Of a stretch of DNA of 64,000 nt, positions 35,674 through 38,169 are shown piece after piece. The stretch is from Limimaricola cinnabarinus. Lineage in GTDB: Bacteria; Pseudomonadota; Alphaproteobacteria; Rhodobacterales; Rhodobacteraceae. Where the stretch lies: contig NZ_KZ304954.1 of assembly GCF_002723615.1 (NCBI RefSeq), positions 124,001 to 188,000 on the forward strand, given 5' to 3'. Both the position numbers and the translations under genes were made by a program. The stretch's first letter is position 1, and the number at the start of each line of letters is the position of its first letter. The notes under the pieces were generated by a model, which was given only the letters and a program-made list of their open reading frames with translations, did no database searches and was not told where the DNA came from.

Positions 35674-37355
35674 GTGAAGATATCAGCAATCAAGGTTAAA
35701 GGATACCGCACTGTTAAGGATGAGTTGGAGCTCCCGTGCCAATCCTCCTTAACACTAGTAGGGCCAAATAACTCTGGAAAGACTAATACTCTGAGGGCTA
35801 TACGTAGTTTCTTCACTGGATACGAGAACGAGCTTGGATATAACTACGAGCGCGATCTATGTAAGGGCAGCAGGCCAAACAGAAGACCAACATTCAACTC
35901 GGCATTTCTGATATAGATGAAGTGGAAGACGCTGAAGTTTTAGAAGCTGTACGCCAAGTTCGAGATCGCTTGGGCGTAACTTCCGGATCGGATAGGGAGA
36001 TAACACTCTATCTAAGTTTTTCGGAAAGGTCCAATCCGTCTTATAGGGTTTTTCAGAATACGAAGCGCCCCAAGGGGGCGGAAGGAACGGCTTACTCAAG
36101 GGCCGAGCGCCAACTGTTCAACTTGGTGCTGTCCAAAATATCTGTTCATTATATACCATCTGAGAAAAGTGTTCAGCAGCTCTATAAAGATTTGGTGCAG
36201 CCGTTTTTGTTTGACACTGCATTCGAGGTGGTGAGGCCGCATCTGGACCAGATTGAACGCCGTCTTTCCGAAGTTTCGGACGAAGTAAATGAAAGTTTGC
36301 GCTGCGTAGGATTAGAGAAATATACTACATCATTCCACGTCCCGTCGGCAGCTCGAGATTTTATGAGGGCTGTAAGGTTTAATATTGCAGATGATAATAA
36401 GACGGAGATTTTTGATAAAGGGATGGGAGTACAGTCAGTGGCGCTGCTCAGTGCCTTCTGTTGGATTTCGAGGAAGGAGAAAGAAGCCGGAAAGACGGTG
36501 CTATGGTTGATGGAGGAGCCGGAGTCCTACCTGCATCCTGAGCTTGTTGGGCAAAGTGAAGGTTTGATGAGAAGGCTAAGTGAAAACTCCCAAGTTATTC
36601 TTACTACCCATTCTCTCGGCTTTGTTCCTCAGGATCCTTCCCGCGTATTAGGGTTGGACCTAAAATCCGGTTGGACAACCTCTACTAAATTTCGAACTTA
36701 TCACGAAGCTACAGCACATATTCGAAGATCTCTTGGTGTAAGGTTCTCAGACTATTACAATCTTTCGAGGTACAACCTTCTAGTCGAAGGGGAAACTGAT
36801 AGGGGCTACATAGATCACGTTCTGAAGTGCTTGCAGGAGATTCCAGAATACTCCGAGAGATACTCAGTCGTGTTTTCTAGTGATTTTTCGATGCAAGACT
36901 TTGGTGGGGTTCGCGGGGTCGAGGGGTTCTTGAGATCCACGTTTTCATTCATTCGTTCGGAGCGTGCGGTTGTCGCTTTGTTTGATGGAGATGAAGCTGG
37001 TCAAAAGGCCTATCGTGCTCTTCAAGGCTACTTCGGGAAGAAGCAAGTGCCGTTTGAGTCGAATAGAAACTTCGTTGTTGTGCGAGATCGGTTTGATATT
37101 GAAGGTTTGCTGCCAGACTCTTGGGTCGCGAGGGTTCATAAAGACCACCCGACTTGGTTTGAAAGCTATTCTTTAGATGCGCAGGGTTTGCTACTGCCAT
37201 TTAAGGTGGCTGACAGTAGGAAAAATAGCTTTTTGAATGTGTTTAAGGAAATGGCGACGTCGAGCAACTTGGACGACTGGGTCGAGAGATGGTTGCCTGT
37301 TTTGGATGCCATTGAGCGCGCTTTGGTGGCCGAGCATGAACGGTTGAAGGCCTGA
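35674..37355 (+). pseudogene. OLD-family ATPase/TOPRIM nuclease, frameshifted
   Basis: The first frame (35674-35916, GTG start) gives an ABC-type ATPase N-terminus, KISAIKVKGYRTVKDELEL with Walker A GPNNSGKTN. It stops shortly after. The rest continues in the -1 frame to 37355: a GMGVQSVALLSAF signature-like element, Walker B LWLMEEPESYLHP, the H-loop ILTTHSLG, then a TOPRIM domain (LLVEGETDRGYIDHVL and VVALFDGDEAGQKAYRAL). The combined length of 1,682 nt is one base short of a multiple of three. Restoring one base near 35880-35890 gives a smooth join ahead of TNIQLGISDIDEVED. OLD proteins are DNA nucleases, many of them phage-defence factors. No GajB-like helicase or other partner is present. 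Confidence 0.8.
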
Positions 37356-37400: not shown

Positions 37401-37826
37401 TCAATTTTTCGGACTAGTAGGCCCTTTCCGCAACGCCTTCACCTCCCCCCGCTGCTTCTTCGCCTCCAGCCGCCGACGCACCGAACCCTTGGTGGGCTTC
37501 GTCGGCACTCGTCGCTTCGGCACATGCACTGCCGCACGGATCAATTCGGCCAGCCGCTCGCGGGCGATCTCGCGGTTGCGGGGCTGGTGGCGGGTGTCCT
37601 GGACGAAGATCACCACCGCGCCGTCATTGGTCCAGCGCCGCCCGGCGAGCCGTCTGAGCCTCCGCTTGACCGGATCGGGCAGGTTGGGCGAGCGCTCCGC
37701 CTCGAAGCGCAGCTCCACGGCCGTGCTGACCTTGTTGACGTTCTGCCCGCCGGGGCCGGAGGCGCGGGTGAACTGCTCGGTCAGCTCCCAATCCTCGATC
37801 GTGATGCGGTCGTCGATCCTCAGCAT
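37401..37826 (-). CDS. arfB: Alternative ribosome-rescue factor, peptidyl-tRNA hydrolase
   Basis: ArfB (YaeJ) binds stalled 70S ribosomes with an empty mRNA channel and hydrolyses the peptidyl-tRNA. The 141-residue protein has the catalytic Gly26-Gly27-Gln28 in ASGPGGQNVNKVSTAVELRF and the basic C-terminal tail (VPKRRVPTKPTKGSVRRRLEAKKQRGEVKALRK) that enters the mRNA channel. A GGGAGG precedes the ATG. The last eight or so codons (GPTSPKN) and the stop lie in AT-rich island DNA, so the original C-terminus has probably been replaced. It is convergent with the nuclease gene. Confidence 0.93.
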   Translation of the reverse strand: MLRIDDRITIEDWELTEQFTRASGPGGQNVNKVSTAVELRFEAERSPNLPDPVKRRLRRLAGRRWTNDGAVVIFVQDTRHQPRNREIARERLAELIRAAVHVPKRRVPTKPTKGSVRRRLEAKKQRGEVKALRKGPTSPKN

Positions 37827-37850: not shown

Positions 37851-37879
37851 CAGATAGCGCGGGGCCGCGCGACATACAA
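37851..37879 (-). promoter_or_regulatory. Candidate arfB promoter
   Basis: On the minus strand, TTGTAT (37879-37874), 17-bp spacer, TATCTG (37856-37851). The -35 box starts within the U-tract of the preceding terminator. The predicted start is about 20 nt before the arfB ATG. If real, arfB is independent of the small unit upstream. Confidence 0.4.
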
Positions 37880-37911
37880 AAAGGGCCGTTCCCGGCGATG
37901 GGGAACGACCC
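37878..37911 (-). terminator. Strong intrinsic terminator upstream of arfB
   Basis: On the minus strand GGGUCGUUCCC (37911-37901) pairs fully with GGGAACGGCCC (37893-37883), counting one G-U pair, and is followed directly by UUUUUG. On the plus strand the same position is a C-A mismatch, so the element is oriented to stop minus-strand transcription. Confidence 0.85.
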
Positions 37912-37979
37912 TTCGAAGTTCAGGAGGTGGGTCGGTTAGACCGAGATCCACCTGGGGTCACCAGCGGCCAAGGGCTGCC

Positions 37980-38036
37980 TCAGCCACGCACTCCCCAAGC
38001 TGTCCCGACACATTTCTCCAATACCCTTCTCGACAC
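37980..38036 (-). CDS. 18-codon leader-type reading frame
   Basis: A GTG start stands 7 nt from the GGAGG of the hyper-extended Shine-Dalgarno sequence. The peptide would be MSRRVLEKCVGTAWGVRG. Codons 3 and 4 are AGA-AGG, and GTA, TTG, ACA and TGT also occur; these are uncommon in the GC-rich genes around it. The spacing is ideal, so translation initiation looks strong, but a peptide this short could be a regulatory leader rather than a product. No similar peptide is known to me. Confidence 0.4.
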   Translation of the reverse strand: MSRRVLEKCVGTAWGVRG

Positions 38037-38169
38037 TGGATCACCTCCTTTCAGTTGGTTTCGCCTGTTCCAAAGCTGGCACGGAAGCGCGCGTCGTCAA
38101 ACAGAAATTCACGAGAGGTGACGCTTGGGAAACCGGGGTGTGGCGCAGGGGCCGACAGCCCGACCCGGA

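Follow-up and report, generated by a model that had tools for sequence, protein, structure and literature searches.

The 64,000-nt stretch of Limimaricola cinnabarinus DNA analyzed here (the window) carries on its minus strand a minigene that stands alone: it spans about 190 nt, ends in a terminator of its own, and is not a leader of arfB. The gene is very probably the rreR already described, the variant with 18 codons that the small mRNA of Hahn et al. 2017 takes in the Rhodobacter/Roseobacter lineage. We consider it moderately probable that its product is a ribosome-gated small RNA, for which translation matters more than the peptide made.

The approximate transcript of this rreR/CC2171-like small RNA gene (37878-38070, minus strand) was delimited by a match to Rfam family RF01867, by the terminator end, and by alignment with 44 relatives, the 5' end being a deduced one. 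A consensus promoter scan of the minigene returned no promoter and no consensus -10 element. A weak putative -35 element, TTTGACG, was read from the sequence at 38095-38101 (minus strand), and a similar TTGAC is found in many relatives. The A/C-rich leader is followed by the extended Shine-Dalgarno (SD) sequence GAAAGGAGGTGATCCAG at 38036-38052 (minus strand), which is complementary to the 3' tail of alphaproteobacterial 16S rRNA and recurs in the class. The 17-nt match of which the preliminary description had spoken, at 38052-38036, is present, and its 17th base coincides with the first letter of the GTG start codon. Even with three mismatches allowed, GAAAGGAGGTGATCCAG has no other match in the window, and dinucleotide shuffles average 0.12 matches. 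The GTG at 38036 opens, as had also been stated, a frame of 18 codons plus TGA that ends at 37980 (37980-38036, minus strand; peptide VSRRVLEKCVGTAWGVRG, then stop). The intrinsic terminator (37880-37914, minus strand) was recognized by a terminator call and by folding; its 14-bp stem covaries in relatives (helix 5).

The plus strand at this place resembles the 16S tail. A 16S fragment was nevertheless rejected as an explanation, as Rfam found no rRNA in the window and the start and frame on the minus strand are conserved. A search for 16S rRNA gave no match in the assembly or in two relatives (G000, G006, and G010), and 9 of 14 control genomes matched.

Comparison of genomes shows the gene in various orders of the Alphaproteobacteria, usually as a single copy. 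A blastn search with 271 bases found the minigene in 31 of 61 genomes, including 28 of 37 from the same family. Five of the nine family genomes that lacked a blastn match did match RF01867, with E values no higher than 1.5e-4, so that the two methods together give a candidate in 33 of 37. The pattern AAAGGAGGTGATCCAGTG, which spans the SD and start codon, matched with at most one mismatch in 52 of 385 class genomes and never more than once per genome; the reversed pattern had 0 matches in the same 385. An exact pattern scan of named genomes returned at least 120 stretches. Among the 80 titles listed, all taxon names below phylum were alphaproteobacterial, and four titles said Proteobacteria or Pseudomonadota only. 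This recurrence of SD and frame in relatives, the check that the preliminary description had proposed, places the element beyond chance: it is a genuine and conserved gene, whose ribosome-binding site is exceptional and whose frame is fixed at 18 codons. Merging of loci that share their first 60 nt left 167, and the 133 with a terminator call were folded; 45 of these form the family group A1. Two loci (L013 and L014) have an SD reduced to 11 nt and have kept the frame and the anti-SD sequence described below.

An Rfam scan at gathering thresholds gave no match at the place of the minigene. At relaxed thresholds RF01867, the Caulobacter small RNA CC2171, matched 38060-37883 (minus strand) over the full model (positions 1-159) with 38.0 bits, against a gathering score of 75, and an E value of 7.2e-7 in 251 bases. 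In the whole genome from which the window comes this was the single match at E 0.001 (E 2.6e-6). At the same threshold 26 of 142 class genomes matched, 5 of them over the cut-off, which suggests that the RF01867 cut-off probably leaves many members out. Caulobacter alone matched among 14 control genomes at E 0.001; at the looser E 0.1, 5 of the 14 matched, with 1 over the cut-off. Two class genomes had two matches each at E 0.001 (L068 and L087 in G048, L066 and L088 in G075) and the other 24 had one. The sole Rfam match over its cut-off in the window is a serC leader RNA (RF00517, 26472-26523, plus strand, 71.1 bits).

The frame is clearly under selection for its start, its length, and its stop. 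Of 46 distinct loci that blastn or the RNA model detected, 29 have GTG as start triplet, 15 ATG, 2 TTG, and none CTG; 15 loci without the SD pattern were left out of this count. Single changes at the start base in matches to AAAGGAGGTGATCCAGTG gave ATG 13 times, TTG 3 times, and CTG 0 times. A pattern search in which codon 19 was left free matched in 161 of 295 family genomes. In 145 of the 150 family sequences among the matches listed, all with distinct tails, the first stop falls at codon 19 (TGA 63, TAG 54, TAA 28); the five exceptions stop at codon 18, 20, or 13 or, in two cases, have no stop within the piece. That all three kinds of stop are in use among some 150 genera argues for repeated selection. 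TGG occurs at codon 19 in none of these 150, against 23.5 expected under drift between stops; the corresponding Fisher value of 3e-19 is too strong because the sequences are related. Eight divergent members were found with the RNA model, three of them also by blastn; their frames have 18 codons in seven and 31 in one. Four loci, three of Azospirillum and one other (L034, L128, L152, and L161), have the leader, SD, and start followed by a frame of 56-59 amino acids whose N terminus resembles a secretion signal.

A conserved start and stop would also be expected of a small-protein gene whose 18-amino acid peptide acts in the cell, and members of the family seem to share a conserved pattern VSR..LE..VGT. 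Across the 45-sequence alignment, the three codon positions are equally variable (0.77, 0.77, and 0.76 bits). Between nearest neighbors, synonymous changes make up a fraction of 0.297, against a neutral expectation of 0.299 with transitions weighted 4:1. A second test used 74 stretches chosen regardless of their stop. The synonymous fraction over codons 2-17 was 0.34 against 0.25 in shifted frames, which is coding-like, as is the third position being the most variable over codons 8-12 (0.71 versus 0.43 bits). Over codons 8-18 the fraction was 0.299, shifted frames giving 0.254 and 0.285, and over codons 13-17 there was no clear excess (0.304 versus 0.302 and 0.242). Codon-position variability and synonymous fraction thus gave no overall support for a coding peptide, codons 8-12 and 2-17 being coding-like, and some constraint on the peptide may act mid-frame. 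Against a functional peptide, moreover, the peptides look unrelated between lineages, and the conserved residues coincide with arms of RNA helices: LE is encoded by UUGGA, which pairs with UCCAG; TW of the Rhizobiales/Caulobacterales type by a CUGGA arm; and HL of Bradyrhizobium by CACCUC. We regard a small-protein gene as a rather unlikely explanation. The length of the frame seems to be more tightly conserved than the peptide. With start, length, and stop selected and the peptide mostly drifting, the function would seem to lie in translation itself.

The RNA is predicted to mask its own ribosome-binding site. The window RNA fold has a free energy of -92.7 kcal/mol (z -2.3; 4 of 200 shuffles were as good) and places the start codon in the second hairpin and the stop codon in the third. 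In the start-codon hairpin, a 9-bp helix joins the 5' arm TCCAGTGTC (RNA UCCAGUGUC; 38032-38040, minus strand), which holds the start codon, to the 3' arm GGTATTGGA (RNA GGUAUUGGA; 38017-38025, minus strand) in codons 4-7; 98.1% of the cells of this hairpin are paired in relatives. The stop-codon hairpin (37964-37987, minus strand; helix 4) has a loop CAGC and a 10-bp helix in the window fold. The part kept in relatives is a 3-bp stem whose first base is the final one of the stop codon, and 87.4% of its cells are paired. The SD itself is predicted to pair, through GGAGGTG, with a conserved anti-SD sequence C[AG][CT]CTCC located before the terminator. In the window this internal anti-SD is CACCTCCT (RNA CACCUCCU; 37922-37929, minus strand), which forms an 8-bp helix with the SD part AGGAGGTG (RNA AGGAGGUG) at 38042-38049.

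The anti-SD motif occurs between the stop and the terminator in 44 of the 45 aligned sequences, against 2.2 expected from shuffles, and in 44 of 45 family sequences pairing between the SD and the last 45 nt ahead of the terminator exceeds a probability of 0.5. A second set, of 30 loci fetched from the search with codon 19 free, included two without a terminator call and two that repeat A1 members (L215 and L237). The motif was present in 24 of 28 loci of this set, against 1.5 expected, and in 23 of 28 loci outside the A1 alignment. Pairing of the SD with the anti-SD stretch had a probability of 0.97 in the aligned sequences and 0.92 in the second set; shuffling of the stretch brought it down to 0.37. 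In the consensus structure 94.8% of cells are paired, compared with 42-57% when the sequences are slid, and 15 of 35 pairs have two-sided changes. The SD:anti-SD helix contains no two-sided change because its SD side is invariant; the support for it comes from wobble-compatible one-sided changes and from folding. Among the eight divergent members the motif is absent in three (L248, L252, and L253). By eye, codons 2-4 also seemed able to pair with the pre-terminator region in Rhodobacteraceae; folding gave this helix in 0 of 45 sequences, and it was discarded.

A heptamer located before the anti-SD, CTAAC[CT]G (37933-37939; A1 columns 150-156), is nearly invariant in the 45 family sequences and possibly serves as a binding site in trans. 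It bears on the alternative of a base-pairing small RNA or sponge, in which the G/A-rich SD or a released CCUCC arm would pair in trans, for example with alphaR8 (SisA-like) anti-SD small RNAs, the frame being incidental. The heptamer is unpaired in the consensus fold, as such an RNA would have it, but CTAACCG lies inside a small local hairpin in the window fold. Caulobacter CrfA, which according to PMC12559287 sponges anti-SD small RNAs via a G/A-rich loop, is a precedent. Nevertheless, an incidental frame would have no need of the conserved start triplets and codon-19 stop seen here, and the position of the anti-SD differs between lineages. We judge a sponge unlikely, if less so than a functional peptide.

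The start region appears to be masked by different helices in different lineages, as judged from predicted folds. Alignment A2 comprised 30 of 52 SH sequences, hand-chosen as alignable. In the hand-picked Rhizobiales/Caulobacterales-type set (n = 30), UCCAG pairs with an in-frame CUGGA, which accounts for the conserved TW, and GGUG pairs with bases just past the frame; 95.4% of cells pair in the consensus, against 37-57% when slid. In the Bradyrhizobium type (n = 7) the SD is unpaired at 0.11, and CHLAG holds CACCUC (CACCTC in DNA), an anti-SD inside the frame. The seven frames of this type have 14 codons and read VSxxKRCHLAGIAR (L109, L115, L119, L120, L132, L143, and L156). The SD is more open in the SH and MSS/MSK groups, at 0.30 and 0.37 unpaired.

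The gene downstream of the minigene is arfB (37401-37826, minus strand; NF006718, 186.6 bits against a cut-off of 100), a neighbor that lies outside the element. The preliminary description had proposed a minigene that stalls or titrates ribosomes, in a putative link with arfB; a strong SD and a short frame would lead the ribosome into tandem AGA-AGG codons. Both codons are indeed uncommon in the window, at 0.23% (AGA) and 0.54% (AGG) of the 18848 codons in 41 long open reading frames. AGA is kept at codon 3 in 43 of 45 aligned relatives, but AGG is found at codon 4 in only 4 of 45, and stalling at the tandem was not borne out. The tie to arfB held within the family: arfB lies within 1.5 kb of the minigene in 20 of 24 motif-bearing family loci (L013 and L014, with their diverged SD, left out) and, at 25 of 32 named 18-codon loci among the matches listed, follows it downstream in the same orientation. 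It is also found within about 1.3 kb, upstream and on the opposite strand, at two Hyphomonadaceae loci with a 26-codon frame (L113 and L154). The tie did not extend further, as arfB is near none of the 34 loci L027-L060 (31 distinct places, L027 being of the same family) and is not near 86 of the 88 named loci with other frame lengths among the matches listed, the remaining 2 having it nearby. Furthermore, the terminator at 37914-37880, a strong one, precedes arfB, whose start is at 37826. Synteny, with arfB absent near most non-family loci, and the intervening terminator likewise disfavor a cis-acting leader or attenuator of arfB. We consider a stalling or titrating minigene that works on arfB or together with it to be very improbable; arfB seems to be mainly a neighbor within the family. 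Titration of ribosomes by the minigene is possible, but its site is predicted to be masked by the fold of the RNA itself.

Other neighbors of the minigene, identified by simple open reading frame calling, differ between orders, and this variation together with the gene having its own terminator indicates a stand-alone gene. A Vut_1 transporter gene (Pfam, from one piece) is often found upstream in Rhodobacterales, its cluster comprising 29 loci. Convergent with arfB in the window is a gene for an AAA_15-type ATPase, presumably OLD-like (35674-37355, plus strand), which is split over two frames (35674-35916 and 35922-37355). Its GC content is 46.8%, compared with 68.9% for the window, and it looks like an acquired, possibly broken gene.

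The ribosome-gated reading that we favor would work as follows. In the completed rreR RNA the SD would be held by the anti-SD near the 3' end and the start codon by its hairpin. The masking helices could then be displaced by a free 30S subunit, with a 16S tail that is complementary to the SD over its full length. Ribosome loading and release over a frame of fixed length would be what is mainly kept, with the peptide largely a by-product. Binding of the ribosome would set the fate of the RNA, either through its stability or through the strand that becomes exposed. For the putative gating by 30S subunits and change in fate we lean on what Hahn et al. reportedly found, and any target is likewise conjectural. 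In a bolder form, which we hold to be doubtful, the RNA would sense free 30S subunits throughout the class: spare 30S would open the masked SD by strand displacement with the 16S tail, exposing a mimic of that tail (CC[AG][CT]CUCC in Rhodobacterales) or altering RNA stability, so that the RNA would report ribosome supply, with its 18-codon frame translated only to reset the switch.

Among known systems, CrfA and the alphaR8/SisA-D small RNAs resemble the minigene in carrying SD-like and anti-SD sequences in small RNAs; they differ in that no conserved frame is reported for them in the accessible part of PMC12559287, a comparison made by description only. RF01867 is closer. An RNA of this family has been predicted in Mesorhizobium, according to PMC5596092. 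The minigene shares with CC2171 a full-length match (1-159), the 5' block, the terminator, and a 21-nt stretch, GAAAGGAGGUGAUCCAGUGUC, identical to the consensus, although its 38 bits fall under the cut-off of 75. The RF01867 model pairs codons 2-5 with the pre-terminator region, whereas the minigene family pairs the SD with the anti-SD instead; at least 4 expected pairs of the model helix were found in 0 of 45 family sequences and in 32 of 52 of the SH group.

The closest likeness is to rreB and rreR. The Bradyrhizobium mRNA rreB of Hahn et al. 2017 reportedly has 165 nt, 14 codons, and a 17-nt SD and is said to cosediment with 30S subunits. Its translation is reportedly weak, impeded by the SD and GTG, and changing the start to a stop codon is said to stabilize the RNA. 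The form reported from the Rhodobacter/Roseobacter lineage, rreR, is said to have 18 codons. The minigene shares with both an SD of about 17 nt, a GTG start, a short frame, and occurrence in Alphaproteobacteria, and frame lengths of 14 codons (Bradyrhizobium) and 18 codons were found here independently. Where complementarity to 16S rRNA of at least 16 nt is said to define these RNAs, the minigene has 17 nt at 38052-38036, taking the 16S sequence from general knowledge, and it has the 18-codon frame said to mark the Rhodobacter/Roseobacter lineage. To our knowledge the rreB/rreR class has a published name and no established role. The link to RF01867, the predicted masking by a 3' anti-SD, and a stop kept despite a largely drifting peptide are not known to us from Hahn et al. 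2017, although some of this may be reported there. A literature search on the minigene found no dedicated paper beyond Hahn et al. as a cited reference, which proves little; the reference list of PMC7298713 cites Hahn et al. for a small mRNA with an extended Shine-Dalgarno sequence. In the minigene two apparently separate records, the Rfam small RNA CC2171 and the small mRNA rreB/rreR, are joined.
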